Shown one piece after another: positions 2,223-12,107 of a stretch of DNA of 64,000 nt. A program made the translations under genes and the position numbers. How positions within the stretch are numbered: position 1 is the first letter of the stretch; the number at the start of each line of letters is the position of its first letter. The DNA is from Natrinema salaciae (GTDB lineage Archaea > Halobacteriota > Halobacteria > Halobacteriales > Natrialbaceae), in NCBI RefSeq assembly GCF_900110865.1, contig NZ_FOFD01000001.1, forward strand, positions 434,001 to 498,000, read 5' to 3'. The notes beneath the pieces are model-generated. The model saw only the letters and a program-made list of their open reading frames with translations. It was not told the DNA's origin and ran no database searches.

Positions 2223-2597
2223 AGCACCTGATGCGTTCGTGCGAAGTCGACTTAAAACTGGGCGCGCGCCGCGCTGCCGTGTTCCCCCGCTCGCGCCGTC
2301 GTCCCGCCGTCAATATCTCCTTGACGCACAACGAACGGTGAATACGATCACCAATATTTATACGTTAGATCCAGAAACGATAGAAAGCCGCAGGCGAACT
2401 GACACACCACGCATGCGGTCTGGGATCGCATCACCTCGATCGCCGTTTCGACGCGGTCGGCGGTCCGCTGCGATTTCCAGGGCGACCCGCGACCACCAAC
2501 TCGGCGACCACCCCGCGGGAACCCACCGCCACTACCGGCCTCACCGAACGGGGCCGCGATGCCGTGTCGTTTTTTACCCGGGACCCGTACGGCGACT
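2223..2597. other. Intergenic region with promoters, no convincing gene
   Basis: A 375-bp gap between the divergent UPF0173 gene and the gene at 2598. It holds a minus-strand TATA-like AGTTTTAAG at 2251-2259 serving the hydrolase. A second, stronger A+T island at 2341-2372 (accaatatttatacg; reads TATAAATATT on the minus strand) has no good reading frame behind it on either strand. A TTTTTTAC element near 2569-2576 sits about 25 nt before the ATG at 2598. The island at 2341-2372 could drive a small RNA or be an old promoter. Confidence 0.5.
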
Positions 2598-2861
2598 ATG
2601 CTCGCACTCACGCTCGAGGAGTTCATGGTAGAGCTAAACGATGGCGCGATCAAGAACGTCGGTCCGAACAACAAGGCGGCGACGGTCAAGCTATTCGACG
2701 TCGACTCCGCCGAGGCGAGGGAGTTCGGCGACAAGCGCATCAAACTCGTCTTCGAGGACGAAGACGACAACGAGATTCAGGTCTCGTTATTCCCGGAGGA
2801 CGTCCGGACGCTCGTCGACGAAATCGACTCGCTCGAGGACGATTCGCCCGTTTTCGACTGA
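2598..2861 (+). CDS. Small acidic protein, unknown function
   Basis: An 87-residue acidic protein beginning MLALTLEEFMVELNDG. It has alternating charged and hydrophobic strands (KLFDVDSAEAREFGDKRIKLVF, shown only in part here as IKLVFEDEDDNEIQVSLF-like text) and ends in a run of Asp/Glu with Pro-Val-Phe-Asp. No Cys, signal peptide or membrane segment is visible. I chose the ATG at 2598 because a TTTTTTAC promoter element sits about 25 nt upstream; the longer frame beginning at 2559 would place this promoter inside the gene, and MVELNDG at 2625 is a third option. It is 91 nt upstream of the RecJ-like gene on the same strand and may be cotranscribed with it. I do not recognise the family. Confidence 0.65.
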   Translation: MLALTLEEFMVELNDGAIKNVGPNNKAATVKLFDVDSAEAREFGDKRIKLVFEDEDDNEIQVSLFPEDVRTLVDEIDSLEDDSPVFD

Positions 2862-2952
2862 CGGCGGCGCTGTGTCACCGTCATACCGCGCGATCGGTAT
2901 CACGAACGCATTTCGACAACCGTTTTAGGCCGAAACCGCTTGGTCCGAGTAG

Positions 2953-5154
2953 ATGGGTAACTGTATCATCTGCGGCACACCCGTTGACGGCGAGATCTGT
3001 GAGAGTCACGAGGAGGATGCTGTATTCGAATTTCGCGGCACGTCCGCCTCGCAGCTCACACCCGGTCGGTACTACCGGGGGACCGTCGACGGCTACGCCG
3101 ACTTCGGTGTCTTCGTCGACATCGGAGATCACGTCACTGGCCTGTTGCACAGAAGCGAACTCGACCAACGACTCGAAAGTCTCGACTGGGAGCCGGGGGA
3201 CGACGTCTTCGTCCAGGTGCTCGACGTTCGAGACAACGGCAACGTCGATCTCGGGTGGTCGATCCGCCAGCGCGAACGCGAGTTCCGCGGCAAGCTGATC
3301 GAGACCGCCGACGACGAGTACCGGCCCGAAGAGGGCGGAGACGACGACGCGGCCGACGAGTCGTCGACACGGACGACCGACGACGATGCGGACGACCTCA
3401 CCGACGACCGCGCGGCGAAAGCCGGCGAACTGCAGGCGTCCGCCGACGAGACCGAACCCGAACCGGAGCCAGAACCGGAGCCGGAGTCCGTCGACGAGGG
3501 CCAACCCGCGGCCGCCGAACCGACCAGCGCCGTCGCGAGTAGCGGCTCCGTCGCGACCGAGTCCGCCGCCGCGTCGGCGCCGGCGACCGACGAGGCCGCC
3601 GACGCCGACCTGGACGCCGCGCTCAAGCGGACGACCATCGGCGCCATCGAGAACACGGTCGGCAGCGTCGTCCGCCTCGAGGGCGAGATCACCGGCGTTC
3701 GCCAGACCAGCGGTCCCACGGTCTTCGAACTGCGCGACGAGACCGGAACCGTCGAGTGTGCGGCGTTCGAGGAAGCCGGCGTTCGCGCCTACCCCGACGT
3801 CGAACTCGAGGACGTCGTGGCGCTGGAAGGCGAGGTCGAACACCACCACGGCGACCTGCAGGTCGAGACTGAGTCCCTCGAGATCCTCGACGGCGAGGAG
3901 CGCGAGACGGTCGTCGACCGCCTCGAGAGCGCGATCGAACGCGAGGCGCGACCCGCGGATATCGCGCCGCTGGCCGACCACGAGGCAGTGGCGGCCGTCG
4001 AAGACGAAATCGCCGACGCGGCGACCGCGATCCGGCGGGCCGTCATGGAGGCGCGCCCGATCGTCGTCCGCCACGGCGCGACCGCCGACGGCTACGTCGC
4101 CGGTGCCGCCATCGAGCGCGCCGTCCTCCCGCTGATCCGCGAGAAACACACGCGCGAGGACGCGGAGTACCACTACTTCGAGCGCCGCCCGCTCGACGGC
4201 CGCGTCTACGACATGGACGCCGCCACCAGCGACGTCACCTCGATGCTCGAGGCCCGCGACCGCCACGGCGAGCAGTTCCCGCTCGTCGTCCTGGTCGACG
4301 CCGGTTCGACCGTCGAATCCGTCGACGGCTACGAACTGCTCTCGCTGTACGACGCCGATTCGCTCGTCATCGACGACAGCCGCGCCGACGAGGCGGTCGC
4401 CGACGCCGTCGACGTCGCCGTCGCCCCGTCGATCGCGGGCGTCGACGTCTCCGACGTCACCTCGACCGCGCTGGCGACCAACGTCGCCGCGCACGTCAAC
4501 GACGACGTGCGAGCGGACCTCGAGCACCTCCCCGCGGTCAGCTACTGGGAGAATACGCCCGAGGCGTACCTCGAACTCGCCACCGAGGCCGGCTACGACG
4601 AAACCGACGTCTCCGAGCGTCGCGAAGCCGTCGCGCTCGAGGCCTACTACCAGTCCTACAAGGACAAGCGCGAACTCGTGATCGATCTGCTGTTCGGCGA
4701 CGGTGACGAGTCCGATCGACCTCGAAACGGCGATCTGGCCGCCCACGTCTCTGAACAGTTCCGTGACAAGCTCGAGACCGAACTCGAGACGGCCCGCGAG
4801 AACCTCTCGGTTCGCGACGCCGACGGCGTCACCGTCTCCGTGCTCGACACGGACGCGTTCACGCACCGGTACAATTTCCCGACGACGATCCTGCTGCTGG
4901 ACGCGCTCCACCGGACCGAACGCGACCGGACGGAGCCGCCAGCCGTCACCCTCGGCGTCGGCGACGACGAACTGCACGTTCGCGCGACCGAACCGGTGAA
5001 CGTCCGCGACCTCGGCGACGCGATCGCCGAGGCAGTGCCCAACGGCGGCGTCAGCGTCGTCGGCGGCCGCGACGGCCACGTCGAGTTCCTGCCGGGCGAA
5101 CGCGATGCAGTCCGCGAGGCGGCACTCGAGGCGCTCGCCGAGACGCTCGCGTAA
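2953..5154 (+). CDS. RecJ/Cdc45-like protein: zinc knuckle, S1, OB fold and degenerate DHH domain
   Basis: A 733-residue multidomain protein. A possible zinc knuckle has C4, C7, C16 and H19. Residues about 40-110 form an S1 RNA-binding domain (GRYYRGTVDGYADFGVFVDI). A long acidic, Pro-Glu-rich linker with EPEPEPEPEP runs to about residue 210. An OB-fold nucleic-acid domain follows (about 225-305, ITGVRQTSGPTVFELRD). The C-terminal half is a DHH-phosphoesterase (RecJ) fold. Known active haloarchaeal paralogues carry a His/Asp cluster at the first motif and Asp-His-His later. Here the matching sites read RHGATADG (about residue 373) and IDDSRADE (about 472), so the catalytic residues look lost. 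It may therefore bind DNA or RNA without cutting, as Cdc45-type RecJ relatives do in the CMG helicase. The architecture is clear; the inactive state and replisome role are inference. Confidence 0.85.
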   Translation: MGNCIICGTPVDGEICESHEEDAVFEFRGTSASQLTPGRYYRGTVDGYADFGVFVDIGDHVTGLLHRSELDQRLESLDWEPGDDVFVQVLDVRDNGNVDLGWSIRQREREFRGKLIETADDEYRPEEGGDDDAADESSTRTTDDDADDLTDDRAAKAGELQASADETEPEPEPEPEPESVDEGQPAAAEPTSAVASSGSVATESAAASAPATDEAADADLDAALKRTTIGAIENTVGSVVRLEGEITGVRQTSGPTVFELRDETGTVECAAFEEAGVRAYPDVELEDVVALEGEVEHHHGDLQVETESLEILDGEERETVVDRLESAIEREARPADIAPLADHEAVAAVEDEIADAATAIRRAVMEARPIVVRHGATADGYVAGAAIERAVLPLIREKHTREDAEYHYFERRPLDGRVYDMDAATSDVTSMLEARDRHGEQFPLVVLVDAGSTVESVDGYELLSLYDADSLVIDDSRADEAVADAVDVAVAPSIAGVDVSDVTSTALATNVAAHVNDDVRADLEHLPAVSYWENTPEAYLELATEAGYDETDVSERREAVALEAYYQSYKDKRELVIDLLFGDGDESDRPRNGDLAAHVSEQFRDKLETELETARENLSVRDADGVTVSVLDTDAFTHRYNFPTTILLLDALHRTERDRTEPPAVTLGVGDDELHVRATEPVNVRDLGDAIAEAVPNGGVSVVGGRDGHVEFLPGERDAVREAALEALAETLA

Positions 5155-5934: not shown

Positions 5935-6309
5935 TCAGTCGTCGCTCGTCTCGGCCTCGTCGGATCGCTCGGTGCGTGCCGGCCGCTCGACCGCCGACGG
6001 GTCGGGCCAGGTGACGCTCCCGAGGAAGGGAATCCCGATTCGTTCGGCTGCTCGAGCGATCATGTGTGCGCCGGTCGGAACGGTCAGGAAGAGGAAGCCG
6101 ATCCCGATGAGCGCGGTCAACCCCTCCCCGCCCGGGCCGAAGTGGACGAAGCCGGCCAGGAAGATCGCGGCAGTGCCGAGCGTCGTCGGCTTGCTCGTGG
6201 CGTGCATCCGGTTGTAGACGTTCGGCAGGCGGAGCAGCCCGATCGTCCCGACGGTCAGGAAGAAGGCCCCGACGACGATCAGCGCAATGACGACGGCGGT
6301 GTGGATCAT
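5935..6309 (-). CDS. mnhG: Na+/H+ antiporter subunit G (MnhG/MrpG)
   Basis: A 124-residue protein, last in the seven-gene mnh operon. It has three membrane segments in the first 85 residues and the MnhG signature: TVGTIGLLRLPNVYNRMHATSKPTTLG, of which the key parts are LLRLPNVYNRMHA and KPTTLG. The C-terminus is a soluble acidic tail. MrpG is a small subunit needed for assembly of the multisubunit Na+/H+ antiporter in the cell membrane. The start at 6309 overlaps mnhF by 4 nt; a longer upstream frame is Arg-rich and lies inside mnhF in another frame, so it is not used. Confidence 0.93.
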   Translation of the reverse strand: MIHTAVVIALIVVGAFFLTVGTIGLLRLPNVYNRMHATSKPTTLGTAAIFLAGFVHFGPGGEGLTALIGIGFLFLTVPTGAHMIARAAERIGIPFLGSVTWPDPSAVERPARTERSDEAETSDD

Positions 6310-6605
6310 TCGATCACCTCTCCTTCGGTGACGAACTTGGCGCCCGCGACGGTCGCGATGAACCCGATGATCGCGAGCACGAGGCTCACGGTGATAAAGA
6401 GGCCGCGGTCGGTCAGGAGCGCGAACAGGACGGCGATCGCGACGACGTTCGTGGCGATGGCGTCCAGCGCGACGACGCGGTCGGGGTTCGTCGGCCCGCG
6501 GATCACGCGGTAGCCACACAGGACACAGAGGGCGCTGACGAGGATCAGCGCACCCCGAATCGCCGTCTCGAGGACGGCGGGATCGCTCTCAGTCATCGTC
6601 GTCAC
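6306..6605 (-). CDS. mnhF: Na+/H+ antiporter subunit F (MnhF/MrpF)
   Basis: A 99-residue protein with three transmembrane helices, the normal size and topology for MrpF. The family signature GPTNPDRVVALDAIATN lies between helices 1 and 2, with the conserved Asp residues of the PDRVVALD segment. MrpF is an essential small subunit of the Mrp antiporter and has been implicated in ion passage between subunits. It overlaps mnhE by 17 nt and mnhG by 4 nt, which indicates translational coupling. Confidence 0.93.
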   Translation of the reverse strand: MTTMTESDPAVLETAIRGALILVSALCVLCGYRVIRGPTNPDRVVALDAIATNVVAIAVLFALLTDRGLFITVSLVLAIIGFIATVAGAKFVTEGEVIE

Positions 6606-7194
6606 CTCCGTCTTGGCGGCCCGGTCTCCTGTCTCTTTCCCCGCCGGAGACGACGATCGCCGGTGGCGGATCCGACGGCGACGCCTCCTCGTCGAACAGC
6701 TCGAGCGCGTAGTCCTCCCAGGTGCGGATCGGCTCGGCGATCGCCTCCGGGTCGTGGCCGTTGACGCCGTGGACGTACAGCGCGTTGGTTTCGTCGTCGT
6801 AATCGAGCGTCACCGTTCCGGGAGTGATCGTGATGCTGTTGGCGATGACGGTGATCGCGACGTCGGATTCGACGCGCAGCGGCACCAGGATCACCTCGGG
6901 TTCGATCGGCATTCCGGGCGAGAGCACCCGGTAGGCGACGTCGAGGTTCGCCCGCAGCAGTTCCCAGGTGAACGCGCCCAGATAGAGCCCGGCGTAGGGA
7001 AGCGCCCGGACGCCCCGACCGAGATCGAGGTGCTTGCTGTACAGCCGCCGGAAGACGAACGCGACCGGTAATCCGACGATCAGTCCCGCGAGGCTCCCCC
7101 GCACGAGCGAGATCGGGGTGAGGGGCAGGCCGCGAACCAGCACCCACAGCACGGCGAAGACGACGCCGACGACCGGCCACGTTCGCACCCGCAT
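6589..7194 (-). CDS. mnhE: Na+/H+ antiporter subunit E (MnhE/MrpE)
   Basis: A 201-residue protein. Two or three N-terminal membrane helices are followed by a soluble domain with the MnhE landmarks LLRANLDVAYRVLSP, VITVIANSITITPGT and DYDDETNALYVHGVN. It is longer than the bacterial protein by an acidic C-terminal tail (after about residue 170), a common haloarchaeal feature. MrpE helps assemble and stabilise the antiporter. The start codon touches the mnhD stop codon with a 1-nt overlap and the 3' end overlaps mnhF by 17 nt. Confidence 0.93.
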   Translation of the reverse strand: MRVRTWPVVGVVFAVLWVLVRGLPLTPISLVRGSLAGLIVGLPVAFVFRRLYSKHLDLGRGVRALPYAGLYLGAFTWELLRANLDVAYRVLSPGMPIEPEVILVPLRVESDVAITVIANSITITPGTVTLDYDDETNALYVHGVNGHDPEAIAEPIRTWEDYALELFDEEASPSDPPPAIVVSGGERDRRPGRQDGGDDDD

Positions 7195-8858
7195 CAGTGG
7201 TCACCTCCGCTCGAGTCGCCCAGTTCGCTCGCGTCCGTGGGATCGACGGCCTCGACGTACTCCTCGGTGTCGAGCGCGGCCTCGGCGGCCGCGTCCGCGA
7301 ACTCGTAGACGGGTTCGAAGCCCACGCCGACCGCGATGATCGCCGCCGCGAGTACCACGAGGACGGCCACCTGAACGCCATCGACCGTCGCCGTCTCCAC
7401 GGGATCGGTCTCCGCTCCCCAGAAGCTCTGGTTCCACATCCGGGTCGCGTAGGCGATCGTCAACAGCGACCCGACGAGCAAGAGCACGAGCACGGGGCCG
7501 GCCCGCGCTCGAGCCGCGGCGTCGAAGACGAGGAACTTGCCGAAAAAGCCCGACAGCGGCGGGATTCCGACGAGCGCGAGCGAGCCGACGAAGACGGTGA
7601 TCGCCAGCGGCGGCGACCGGCGCGCCAGCCCGCCGAGGTCGGCGAAGCGGCTCGTCCCCGTCGCGGACCTGACCGTCCCGACCGCGAGGAAGAGCAGCCC
7701 CTTTGCCAGCGTGTGGTTGAGCGCGTAGACCAGCGCAGCGACGATGGCGAACTGGCGGAGCGTCGGATCGGCCGTCGTCGCCGCGATGGCGACCGGGATC
7801 GCGATGAACCCGACCTGCCCGATGCTCGAGTAGGCGAAGACCCCCTCCATCGAGTCGCGGCCGACGGCACCGACGCCGCCGAGGAGAATGCTGGCACCGG
7901 CCATGACGAACAGCACCGCGCCGACGAACGGGAGCGGCGAGTCGCCGGCGATCGAGACGCCCGGGAGCGACAGGTCGACGGCGACCTCCGCGCCCGCGAA
8001 GACCGTAAAGGAGAGGCGGATGATGGCGTAGATTCCCACCTTTTTCGTCGCGCCGGCCAGCAGGGCGGTGATCTGGGGCGGTGCGGCCCGGTAGGCCGTC
8101 GGAATCCAGAACTGGAAGGGGACCAGCCCGGCCTTGATCGCGAACACCGACAGGAGGAGGCCGAGGAGGCCGACGACCGGCACGGGCTCGAGCCCGTAGG
8201 CCGCCGGGTCGGCCAGCCGCTGGGCGAGGTCGGCCATGTTGAGCGTCCCCGTCGTCGCGTAGATGCCGCCGACGCCCAGCAGGAAGACGGCGCTGGCCAG
8301 CAGGTTGAGCGTGACGTACCAGAACGCGGCGCGGGTGTGCTGTGGGCCGCCGCTGTAGGCGACGAAGACGTAGCTCGCCATCAGCATCACCTCGAACCAG
8401 ACGAAGAGGTTGAACAGGTCGCCGGTGAGGAAGGCGCCGGTGACGCCGAGTGCGAGGAAGTGAAAGAGCGGGAAGTAGTAACTGCGCCCCTCGCCGCCGG
8501 GGAGGTGTCTGGTCGAGAAGACCAGCGACGCGACGCCGAGGATCGCGACCATGGTCAGCATGAACGCCGAGAGGCCGTCGGCGACCAACGTGATGCCGAA
8601 TGGGGCCGGCCAGTCGCCGACCTGGTACGTCGCGATCCCCGGTGCGTCCGGCGCGAGAACGACGTACCAGTCGATGGCCGCCACCGCGACCGCGTACGCC
8701 GCGCCGGCGGCGAGACTCACCGCCGCTCGAGCCCGCGGGTGGCTGCCGAGCAGCAGCGAGGCGACGGCCGCGACCAGGACGATCACCATCGGCGCGATCA
8801 CGAGCTGCGATTCGGTACCGACGGGCATCGCCGTCGTCGTCATCGTCGTCGTCATCAT
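7194..8858 (-). CDS. mnhD: Na+/H+ antiporter subunit D (MnhD/MrpD)
   Basis: A 554-residue polytopic membrane protein of the proton-conducting NuoM/N-like family, about 14 helices. It carries the conserved Glu of the VWFEVMLMASY helix and the Lys of AIKAGLVPFQFW, equivalent to the charged residues of the H+ channel in complex I antiporter subunits. It ends in an acidic cytoplasmic tail. The N-terminus encoded by ATGATG and Thr-rich codons (MMTTTMTTTAM) is low complexity, and the true start could be one of several Met codons. It overlaps mnhC by 4 nt. Confidence 0.94.
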   Translation of the reverse strand: MMTTTMTTTAMPVGTESQLVIAPMVIVLVAAVASLLLGSHPRARAAVSLAAGAAYAVAVAAIDWYVVLAPDAPGIATYQVGDWPAPFGITLVADGLSAFMLTMVAILGVASLVFSTRHLPGGEGRSYYFPLFHFLALGVTGAFLTGDLFNLFVWFEVMLMASYVFVAYSGGPQHTRAAFWYVTLNLLASAVFLLGVGGIYATTGTLNMADLAQRLADPAAYGLEPVPVVGLLGLLLSVFAIKAGLVPFQFWIPTAYRAAPPQITALLAGATKKVGIYAIIRLSFTVFAGAEVAVDLSLPGVSIAGDSPLPFVGAVLFVMAGASILLGGVGAVGRDSMEGVFAYSSIGQVGFIAIPVAIAATTADPTLRQFAIVAALVYALNHTLAKGLLFLAVGTVRSATGTSRFADLGGLARRSPPLAITVFVGSLALVGIPPLSGFFGKFLVFDAAARARAGPVLVLLLVGSLLTIAYATRMWNQSFWGAETDPVETATVDGVQVAVLVVLAAAIIAVGVGFEPVYEFADAAAEAALDTEEYVEAVDPTDASELGDSSGGDH

Positions 8859-9208
8859 TCGCGATCACCGAGTTCCGCCACGTCCAACGTGTCGTGTTCC
8901 TCGTAGACCCGATACGACAGCACGAGCGCGAAGGCGGTCATACCGAAGCCGATCACGATCGCGGTCAGCACGAGCGCCTGCACCAGCGGGTCGGCCGTCT
9001 CCGGGACGTGCTCGCCGTGGCCGGCCAGTATCGGGACCGAGTCGGCGGTCGCCGGCGCGATGCCGCCCATCGACAACAGGTAGACGTTCGCGGCCTGGCT
9101 GATGATCGCCAGCCCCCAGACGACCCGGATCAGGTCCCGGCGCAGGAGCAGGAAGGTTCCGAGGGCGAACAGCGCGCCGACCGCGGCCGCGAGGACGACC
9201 GCCGTCAT
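8855..9208 (-). CDS. mnhC: Na+/H+ antiporter subunit C (MnhC/MrpC)
   Basis: A 117-residue, three-helix protein homologous to NuoK of complex I, of normal MrpC size. Visible signatures are LLRRDLIRVVWGLAIISQAANVYLL in the first loop and helix (key Arg-Arg-Asp, and Gln-Ala-Ala-Asn) and DPLVQALVLTAIVIGFG in helix 3. MrpC is required for the complex. The start at 9208 gives a 4-nt ATGA overlap with the end of mnhB; a longer frame reaching 9736 is Arg-rich and runs inside mnhB, so I reject it. Confidence 0.94.
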   Translation of the reverse strand: MTAVVLAAAVGALFALGTFLLLRRDLIRVVWGLAIISQAANVYLLSMGGIAPATADSVPILAGHGEHVPETADPLVQALVLTAIVIGFGMTAFALVLSYRVYEEHDTLDVAELGDRE

Positions 9209-9669
9209 TCCGCGCCCACCACCGAGAGGATCGTGAGCAGCCCGCCGACGACCACGCAGTAGACGCCGAAGTCGAACGCCAGCGCGCTCGCGACCTCGAG
9301 ATGATCGTAGATCGGGACTCCCTCGAGCATGACGAACGTCTGCGTGAGGAACGGCCGGCCGAACAGCAGCGGCGCGAGCCCGCTGGCGACCGCGATCGCG
9401 AACCCGACCGTGAAGAGCCGGCGGTAGACCGCGACGACGCGGTCCCGCGAGGGTCCCTTGCCGGGATCGACGTCCCGGCCGAGGACGCCCCGCTCGAGGA
9501 AGTCCAGCCCGAAGGCCATGTAGACGATCGCGAAGGCCGTCGTCGTGAGCACGCCGCCGATGAACCCGCCGCCGGGGAGGTTGTGTCCCTCGAAGAACAG
9601 CGAGATCGAGACGACCAGGATGATCGGCACGATCGCTCGCGCGGTCGTCCGCATGATGACCGTCGTCAC
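9205..9669 (-). CDS. mnhB: Na+/H+ antiporter subunit B (MnhB/MrpB)
   Basis: A 154-residue protein with four membrane helices. The MnhB signature is clear: ISLFFEGHNLPGGGFIGGVLT (key GHNLPGGGFIGG near residues 29-40) followed by IVYMAFGL. MrpB is one of the small subunits of the multisubunit cation/proton antiporter. It overlaps both neighbours by 4 nt (mnhA upstream, mnhC downstream), fitting a strictly coupled operon. Confidence 0.94.
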   Translation of the reverse strand: MTTVIMRTTARAIVPIILVVSISLFFEGHNLPGGGFIGGVLTTTAFAIVYMAFGLDFLERGVLGRDVDPGKGPSRDRVVAVYRRLFTVGFAIAVASGLAPLLFGRPFLTQTFVMLEGVPIYDHLEVASALAFDFGVYCVVVGGLLTILSVVGAE

Positions 9670-12107
9670 TCGTCGTCACCTCCGGGAAGACCGCCGTCGC
9701 CGCGGGCCGTGTCGGCGTCGTCGGCCGGTGACTCACCGGCCCCTCGAGCGGCGGGGGAGTCGCCGCGACCCCGCATGACGATCAGCGTCAGAATCGAAAT
9801 CGCGGCGAGGGCGATGACGGCGAGCTCGCCGAGCGTGTCGAACCCGCGGAAGTCGACGAGCGTCACGTTGACGATGTTGGTCCCGCCGCCTTCCGGAACC
9901 GCCTGTTCGGCGTACCCGCGGGCGATGTCGGTCGGGCCGTCGGGGCGAGCGCCGGTCGTGACCAGGACGGTGACGAACGCGGTCGCACCGACCGCGATCG
10001 AGAGCACGGCGTCGCGGGCGACCCGTTCGATCTCGACCTCGTAGTACTCGGGGATCTCCTCGATTACGAGCAGGAAGATCACGAGCACGAGCGTCTCGAC
10101 GACGAGCTGGGTCAACGCGAGGTCCGGCGCGCTCGCGAGGATGTAGAAGATGGCGACCATGAAGCCGAGAATAGAGAGCGTGAGCACGCCCGCGATGTGC
10201 GATTCGGACGTGACGACGGCGAGACCGCCGATCACCGCGACGAGCAGGACGAGCGCGATAGCGAGCGAGACGTCGAGACCGAACTCGATCGGCGCGATGG
10301 CACCCGCGGCGACGAACCCGGTGAGCGCGAGCGTACAGGTCGCCGCGAGCGTCCACGACGCGTACGTCCGCAGGTGGCCGTTGTGGACAGTCTCGGCGAA
10401 CCGCCGTCCTTCGTCGGAGAGTCCGTCGACGATCGCGTCGTACCACCAGTTCGCGCCGACCGGCGGGACCGCCCGCGGGATCGCGCGGATCCCCTCGTGC
10501 AGCCGACCGTAGGCCGGATACGCGAGCAGGCCGACGCCGATCGTGACGGCGCTCATCCCGACCGCGGGCGAGTACGACGTGGGGATACCGACGTGCATCT
10601 CGTGGGGATCGACCGCCGTCGACTCGAGGGCCGACTGGACGATGAGGGTGACGGCTCGCTCGGGAGCGACGCTGACGCCTGCGGCGAGCAGCGCCAGCAC
10701 GGTCGGCGGGATGAGCAGGGTGACGGGCGGCCGGTGGACGTGCCCGAGCTCGTCGGGTCGCTCGCCGAAGAACAGCGAGAGGAATCGAAGCGAGTAGAGG
10801 ACGGTGAAGATGCTCCCGAAGACGGCGACGGCAGGGTAGAGCAAGCCCAGCACGCCGATGTCGTGGTGGTGGCTGGCCTCGACGGCGGCCTCGAAGAGCA
10901 GTTCCTTGGAGTAGAAGCCGTTGAACGGCGGGATACCGGCCATGCTGAGTGCGACGACCGTGGTGATCGCGGCCGTGACGGGCAGGTCGCGGCGGAGGCC
11001 GCCGAGCTTTGCGATCTCTCGCGTCCCGGCTTCGTGGGCGATGATCCCCGCGACGAGGAACAGCGCGGCCTTGAACAGGGCGTGATTGAGCAGGTGGAAG
11101 ACCCCGGCCTCCGCGCCGTACACGGACGTGAAGCCGAAGCCGGCGACCATCAACCCGAGGTGGCTCGCGGTCGAGTAGGCGAGCAGTTCCTTGATGTCGG
11201 TCGCCGCGACGGCCATGATCGCACAGACGGTCATCGTCGTCAGGCCGAGCGTCGCGAACAGGAAGAGCCACTCGGCGCTGACGAGCATCGGCCGGACGCG
11301 TCCGATGAAGTACACGCCCACTTTGACCATCGTCGCCGAGTGGAGGAAGGCGGAGACCGGCGTCGGGGCCGCCATCGCGTTGGGAAGCCAGAAGTGCATC
11401 GGGACCTGCGCGGACTTGGTCCCTGCGCCGATCGCGAGCAGCCCCAGCACCGGGAGGAATAGCCCTCGGTCCCGGAGGGCCTGTTGCATCCTGTCGGGGT
11501 TCTCGAGCATCGCCGCGAGGTCGAACGCGGCCCCTGGGCCGAGGACGTCGCCGGCGACGATCGAGAGAAGCAGGAAGCCGACCAGCAGGAAGAGGCCGCC
11601 GCCGACGGTGATGAGCATGGCCATCCTGGCGGCGTACTGTGAGGAGTCGTCGGCGGTGAAGTAGCCGATCAGGACGAACGAACAGAGGCTGGTGAGTTCC
11701 CAGAAGAGGAAGATCGAGATCAGGTCCGCGGCCAGAGCGACGCCGACGATCGATCCCATGAAGGCGAGCAGGGCGGCGTAGTACCTGCTGAGTCCTCCCT
11801 GCCCGTGCATGTACGCGGGCGAGTAGGTGAAGATGAGCGCGCCGATCCCGCACGCGAGCAGCGCGAACAACAGCGCCCAGCCGTCCACGTAGAACCGAAG
11901 CGCGATATTGAGCGAGGGGATCCACTCGAGCTCGACGGCCCCTTCACTTCCGTACTGTGTCGCGAGGAGGCCGAACGACGCGAGCGCGACGACGGTTCCG
12001 GCGAATCCGGTTCCCTCGCCGAGGACGCGGAAGAAAAGCGGCGTGAGTGCTGCAGCGACGAACGGCAGTGCGACCGCGGCGACGACTATCGCCAGGTCGG
12101 GAGACAT
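9666..12107 (-). CDS. mnhA: Na+/H+ antiporter subunit A (MnhA/MrpA)
   Basis: An 813-residue protein, full length for MrpA. The N-terminal ~500 residues are the NuoL-like proton channel: FWELTSLCSF carries the conserved Glu and GTKSAQVPMHFWLPNAM the conserved Lys, with HSATMVKVGVY following. The C-terminal third carries the MbhD/MbhE-like helices fused in MrpA (ASAPDLALTQLVVETLVLVIFL region). MrpA and MrpD together drive Na+ efflux coupled to H+ entry, important for pH and salt balance. It is the first gene of the operon; a minus-strand TTTAAG at 12138-12143 sits about 31 nt before the ATG at 12107. Confidence 0.95.
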   Translation of the reverse strand: MSPDLAIVVAAVALPFVAAALTPLFFRVLGEGTGFAGTVVALASFGLLATQYGSEGAVELEWIPSLNIALRFYVDGWALLFALLACGIGALIFTYSPAYMHGQGGLSRYYAALLAFMGSIVGVALAADLISIFLFWELTSLCSFVLIGYFTADDSSQYAARMAMLITVGGGLFLLVGFLLLSIVAGDVLGPGAAFDLAAMLENPDRMQQALRDRGLFLPVLGLLAIGAGTKSAQVPMHFWLPNAMAAPTPVSAFLHSATMVKVGVYFIGRVRPMLVSAEWLFLFATLGLTTMTVCAIMAVAATDIKELLAYSTASHLGLMVAGFGFTSVYGAEAGVFHLLNHALFKAALFLVAGIIAHEAGTREIAKLGGLRRDLPVTAAITTVVALSMAGIPPFNGFYSKELLFEAAVEASHHHDIGVLGLLYPAVAVFGSIFTVLYSLRFLSLFFGERPDELGHVHRPPVTLLIPPTVLALLAAGVSVAPERAVTLIVQSALESTAVDPHEMHVGIPTSYSPAVGMSAVTIGVGLLAYPAYGRLHEGIRAIPRAVPPVGANWWYDAIVDGLSDEGRRFAETVHNGHLRTYASWTLAATCTLALTGFVAAGAIAPIEFGLDVSLAIALVLLVAVIGGLAVVTSESHIAGVLTLSILGFMVAIFYILASAPDLALTQLVVETLVLVIFLLVIEEIPEYYEVEIERVARDAVLSIAVGATAFVTVLVTTGARPDGPTDIARGYAEQAVPEGGGTNIVNVTLVDFRGFDTLGELAVIALAAISILTLIVMRGRGDSPAARGAGESPADDADTARGDGGLPGGDDE

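Follow-up and report, generated by a model that had tools for sequence, protein, structure and literature searches.

The window, a stretch of 64,000 nucleotides from the Natrinema salaciae genome, contains a gene for a RecJ-related protein which we regard, on the grounds set out below, as the probable recJ4 gene. The features of this region are as follows.

2559..2861, + strand: small acidic open reading frame of up to 100 aa, conserved upstream neighbour of recJ4
2953..5154, + strand: recJ4 coding sequence, 733 aa plus stop, ATG start, 79.2 kDa, pI 4.2
2953..3018, + strand: zinc knuckle (aa 4-19, C-x2-C-x8-C-x2-H) and a short downstream stretch
3061..3252, + strand: S1 RNA-binding domain (aa 37-100; Pfam S1, E 3e-8)
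3286..3627, + strand: acidic, probably disordered linker (aa 112-225; 36 of 114 residues are D or E)
3670..3888, + strand: OB fold (aa 240-312; Pfam tRNA_anti-codon, E 2e-13)
4060..4707, + strand: degenerate DHH domain with 3 of 8 catalytic-motif residues retained (about aa 370-585)
4627..4695, + strand: RecJ4-specific conserved helical segment AVALEAYYQSYKDKRELVIDLLF (aa 559-581; candidate docking surface)
4801..5151, + strand: DHHA1 domain without the GGGH motif (about aa 617-733)
5935-12107, - strand: Mrp/Mnh-type Na+/H+ antiporter gene cluster, adjoining recJ4

The first-pass annotation had described a protein composed of a zinc knuckle, an S1 domain, an acidic linker, an OB fold and an eroded DHH core, and all of these parts were confirmed by profile matches, motifs and composition. 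The zinc knuckle ligands are C4-x2-C7-x8-C16-x2-H19, and the linker, rich in A, D and E, falls almost entirely in a region (residues 19-222) where pLDDT is below 50. The HAN nuclease profile (NCBIfam NF053577) covers residues 213-730 (407 bits, E 1e-121); a score under the 840-bit equivalog cut-off of this family is what a diverged paralogue should give. Among solved chains, 5yh1 (PfuHAN DHH domain, PF0399, Pyrococcus furiosus) is nearest in sequence and matches residues 319-725 (E 2e-55). No DHH match reaching E 1 was found in a Pfam search, because the motifs are eroded. Natrinema species are close relatives by name, with 82-90% identity. An antisense open reading frame of 732 aa (2881-5079) opposite recJ4 is the usual mirror frame of GC-rich DNA. 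The neighbours of recJ4 are a metallo-beta-lactamase-fold gene, the 100-aa open reading frame and the Mrp antiporter cluster. The 100-aa frame, which matched no family in Pfam or NCBIfam, accompanies recJ4 in 61 of 70 related loci, including several from other families of the order, mostly on the same strand and immediately upstream at a distance of ~90 bp. The antiporter cluster is beside recJ4 in only ~22 of the 70.

Alignment with HAN showed that most of the catalytic site is gone. Motif I, RHHAD-x-DG in HAN (RHHADTDG in PfuHAN), reads RHGATADG in N. salaciae, motif II VDNG has become VDAG, motif III DHH has become DDS, and the Asp of motif IV is replaced by Asn, which bears out the earlier report of RHGATADG and DDS in place of active motifs. 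Thus D379, D449 and D474 are kept (3 of 8 catalytic residues), whereas five are lost (H375 to G, D377 to T, H475 to D, H476 to S and D534 to N). In Thermococcus kodakarensis HAN, the D366A mutant is almost completely inactive, and D364A/D366A has been used as the nuclease-deficient form (PMC5717133); the equivalent of D364 is absent in N. salaciae RecJ4, where it is T377. The possibility that intact ligands might lie elsewhere in the same fold was also checked, and no second ligand cluster was seen in the N. salaciae protein, whose whole domain is collinear with HAN. We then counted the eight HAN catalytic-motif positions in 107 RecJ4-type and 41 RecJ3/HAN sequences. All 107 RecJ4-type sequences keep only one to four of the eight residues, whereas all 41 RecJ3/HAN sequences keep eight. 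The GGGH motif of DHHA1 is likewise present in 41/41 RecJ3/HAN sequences and in 0/107 RecJ4-type sequences, indicating that the substrate-side motif was lost along with the metal site.

Haloferax volcanii contains four RecJ proteins, of which RecJ3 (HVO_1018) and RecJ4 (HVO_2889) are a HAN-group pair, and active-site residues are missing from its RecJ4 (PMC7776575, PMC10470531). On the basis of clade, architecture, mass and the published description, rather than a direct alignment, the N. salaciae gene is most readily taken as recJ4, the orthologue of HVO_2889. In a tree of 71 sequences, one branch with support of 100/100 separates the RecJ4-type rows from the rest, although the deep rows from families f2, f13 and f15 have long branches and an unsure exact place. 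Every one of the 99 sampled genomes of the order has a match, and 84 of them have one of RecJ4 type (>500 bits), normally beside a RecJ3-type match. Together with the loss of motifs, this membership in the RecJ4 clade of the HAN branch upholds the proposal of a haloarchaeal RecJ protein without nuclease function. Five genomes (G009, G025, G037 and G048 of family f9, and G011 of f11; loci L088-L092) contain only an intact HAN-type protein. The RecJ4-type match is absent from these five, several of which are incomplete; their lineages either branched before the duplication or lost RecJ4.

The N. salaciae genome (4.86 Mb, 11 contigs) contains one other HAN-type protein (C1:679163-680998), which scores 1122 bits with the HAN profile and, being above the cut-off of 840, is a true HAN/RecJ3; among the HAN homologues of the genome, RecJ4 ranks second to this intact HAN. 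Two aRNase J paralogues are encoded at C1:829549-830889 and C6:658-1995, both over the TIGR00649 cut-off, and no match to Rrp41 was found in the genome. Two aRNase J genes and no Rrp41 fit the published co-occurrence. RecJ3 and RecJ4 of H. volcanii associate in equimolar amounts in a complex of 560 kDa, which aRNase J joins; when RecJ4 is missing, purification of RecJ3 fails to recover aRNase J, so that RecJ4 bridges the two in a 3'-5' exonuclease complex, and recJ4 matters for recovery from DNA damage (PMC10470531).

Considering this published complex along with the two aRNase J genes and the lack of an Rrp41 match, a non-catalytic scaffold is the best-supported mechanism, and we are confident that recJ4 encodes a dead HAN paralogue serving as the non-catalytic subunit of a 3'-5' exonuclease complex, in which it ties RecJ3 to aRNase J. 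By orthology, N. salaciae RecJ4 would act as H. volcanii RecJ4 does. In such a scenario, RecJ4 would pair with the active HAN/RecJ3 of its own genome and tie it to aRNase J, giving an exonuclease complex that acts 3'-5' on RNA and single-stranded DNA and may help cells that have no exosome to survive DNA damage and to handle RNA. The S1 domain and the zinc knuckle would supply RNA binding, and the linker and the helix at 559-581 may make the contacts. The identity of RecJ4 and its scaffold role are already known in essence from the H. volcanii orthologue (PMC10470531).

Alternatively, RecJ4 may be a nuclease-dead regulator of Hef, or of a RecJ3-Hef complex, at stalled forks, independent of aRNase J. 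RecJ4 belongs to the HAN family, HAN of Thermococcus binds Hef (PMC5717133), the N. salaciae genome contains a Hef candidate (870-aa frame, with an ERCC4 domain), and the role of recJ4 in DNA-damage recovery would be in accord with such a function. However, the H. volcanii RecJ3/RecJ4 complex was isolated with aRNase J, and a RecJ3-Hef complex has not been shown in H. volcanii according to the authors of that study, and we therefore regard this alternative as unlikely.

The first-pass annotation had suggested a Cdc45-like protein, and indeed RecJ4 as a structural subunit of the archaeal CMG helicase, binding GINS and MCM, would be compatible with the shared superfamily fold and with a catalytic domain that is dead, as in Cdc45 and RecJdbh. 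The structural comparison points elsewhere. An AlphaFold2 model built from 35 RecJ4 sequences was confident over residues ~226-733 and of low confidence over the N-terminal 222 residues, and its best fold match (Foldseek, VIA-align) was PfuHAN 5yh1, with a Z of 41.9 over 416 residues and an rmsd of 3.1. Bacterial RecJ with DNA (Z 27.0), Methanothermobacter RecJ-Cdc45 (25.4) and human Cdc45 of the core replisome (22.3) ranked lower. The span of the DHH-DHHA1 core is HAN-like (median 379 versus 391 aa), and no inserted domain was found in RecJ4 between the DHH and DHHA1 parts, leaving no room for a CMG-interaction domain; HAN, too, is reported to be without the CMG-interaction domain of GAN (PMC5717133). 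The gene neighbourhood argues in the same direction. The haloarchaeal Cdc45-like protein, arCOG00428, is inactive and encoded in the S15-S3-Pcc1 neighbourhood (Makarova et al., PMC3307487). In N. salaciae, the genes at C2 ~746.6-749.3 kb encode S15, immediately downstream a 408-aa RecJ-like protein, and then S3Ae. From a weak profile match (18 bits) and its position, the 408-aa protein is plausibly RecJ2, the Cdc45-like protein. In contrast, recJ4 lies outside the S15-S3Ae(-Pcc1) neighbourhood, on a different contig from RecJ2. Furthermore, H. volcanii RecJ4 is non-essential (PMC7776575), and the partners found for it are RecJ3 and aRNase J (PMC10470531). Thus, neighbourhood, missing insertion and fold ranking led us to reject membership in the Cdc45 group: the proposed Cdc45/CMG link finds no support, given the HAN branch (arCOG00429), the fold ranking, the HAN-like core length and an S15-S3Ae neighbourhood that holds RecJ2 instead. 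A CMG subunit binding GINS and MCM is therefore highly improbable, and the replisome role proposed for N. salaciae RecJ4 is unlikely. The RNA-type S1 domain (Pfam S1) of the first-pass annotation, by contrast, is supported.

Since three acidic motif residues remain in RecJ4, weak metal binding may be possible, and D379 and D474 are conserved in 99/107 and 104/107 RecJ4 sequences, respectively, so that the protein might be imagined as a phosphoesterase of weak activity or altered specificity using these residues. However, all the His ligands and the first Asp of motif I, as well as GGGH, are gone nearly throughout the clade, and the Asp of motif II is lost in 45/107, which gives this possibility very little credit.

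Despite its loss of catalysis, the domain has been kept under strong purifying selection. The dN/dS of the whole recJ4 gene is 0.06-0.10, and six comparisons gave 0.042-0.069 for the DHH/DHHA1 part; for RecJ3, two comparisons gave 0.02-0.03. These values, along with the recovery of RecJ4-type sequences across the order, exclude a chance open frame, and although the catalytic motifs are lost and variable, the idea that a duplicated HAN survives here only as a decaying pseudogene or a neutral relic is refuted by intact frames across the order and a dN/dS of 0.04-0.10. In Natrinema hispanicum DSM 18328 (L149), the recJ4 frame is broken near the N-terminus, possibly by a sequencing frameshift; the open frame has 621 aa and the match covers 1-733. 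In the other N. hispanicum strain (L116), recJ4 is intact.

Returning to the scaffold, we compared domain conservation in 19 genomes containing both RecJ3 and RecJ4 (171 pairs). The mean identity of S1 is higher in RecJ4 (0.76) than in RecJ3 (0.60), whereas that of DHH (0.73 versus 0.59) and DHHA1 (0.74 versus 0.51) is higher in RecJ3. The zinc knuckle is present in 104 of 107 RecJ4-type sequences, in none of 26 haloarchaeal RecJ3 and in 5 of 15 other HAN-type sequences, the last probably including methanogens. This opposite conservation of S1 and DHH, together with the distribution of the zinc knuckle, fits a split of ancestral functions between two copies. HAN itself has reportedly been described as a trimer (Feng et al. 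2018). RecJ4 also has a conserved segment of its own: 15 of the 23 positions in 559-581 are RecJ4-specific conserved positions, whereas the core as a whole has 48 among 380 (hypergeometric p 9e-10, a value that treats positions as independent for a segment chosen after looking and is thus indicative only). A [YF][YF]Q-x4-KR motif is found in 97/107 RecJ4 but in 0/41 RecJ3/HAN sequences. From these patterns, the helix is a candidate docking surface.

It is tempting to speculate, tentatively and at somewhat less than even confidence, that a HAN gene was duplicated in the haloarchaeal line and its functions were then divided in an obligate two-gene machine, in which RecJ4 docks and reads RNA, RecJ3 cuts, and the 559-581 helix docks RecJ3 or aRNase J. 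RecJ4 would have retained the zinc knuckle along with a strongly conserved S1 domain, gained the acidic linker and the helix, and lost catalysis and the DHHA1 substrate motif, while RecJ3 would have stayed catalytic, with loss of the zinc knuckle and drift of its S1 domain. We came across no statement of this division of labour in the literature consulted, which is no proof of its being unpublished, and it is possibly new.

In summary, the place of this protein among the haloarchaeal RecJ relatives is settled; its assignment shifts away from the Cdc45 replisome to a complex that degrades RNA and DNA exonucleolytically in archaea without an exosome, and the census extends its loss of catalysis to the whole RecJ4 clade. 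Two testable points are added, namely how the domains are divided between RecJ3 and RecJ4, and the RecJ4-specific helix as a candidate interface.

Among known systems, the closest is H. volcanii RecJ4, also a HAN-group (arCOG00429) paralogue from which active-site residues are missing, with S1 and OB set apart by a long, acidic and disordered linker (IDR ~100-235) and with a mass of 79 kDa, near the 79.2 kDa of the N. salaciae protein. Both species have RecJ3 and aRNase J and lack the exosome, but N. salaciae has two aRNase J genes, whereas H. volcanii is described with one, and the H. volcanii complex is known by experiment, whereas N. salaciae RecJ4 is known from its sequence. With HAN/RecJ3 (NF053577; PfuHAN 5yh1; TkoHAN), RecJ4 shares the S1-OB-DHH-DHHA1 architecture and a very close DHH-DHHA1 fold at 29-30% identity. 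Unlike RecJ4, HAN keeps 8/8 catalytic-motif residues and GGGH, and haloarchaeal RecJ3 has neither the zinc knuckle nor the long linker; the S1-OB linker has a median of 107 residues in RecJ4 and 8-16 (median 9) in RecJ3/HAN. Haloarchaeal RecJ2 (arCOG00428) is, like RecJ4, a RecJ relative with an inactivated DHH domain in the same genome, but it belongs to a different branch, has ~408 aa without S1 and OB, and is encoded between the S15 and S3Ae genes. Finally, RecJ4 resembles Cdc45 and Sulfolobus RecJdbh in the broad sense of a nuclease-dead RecJ-fold scaffold, whereas these belong to another branch, have other partners and are part of the replicative helicase, with a CMG-interaction domain in Cdc45 and GAN.
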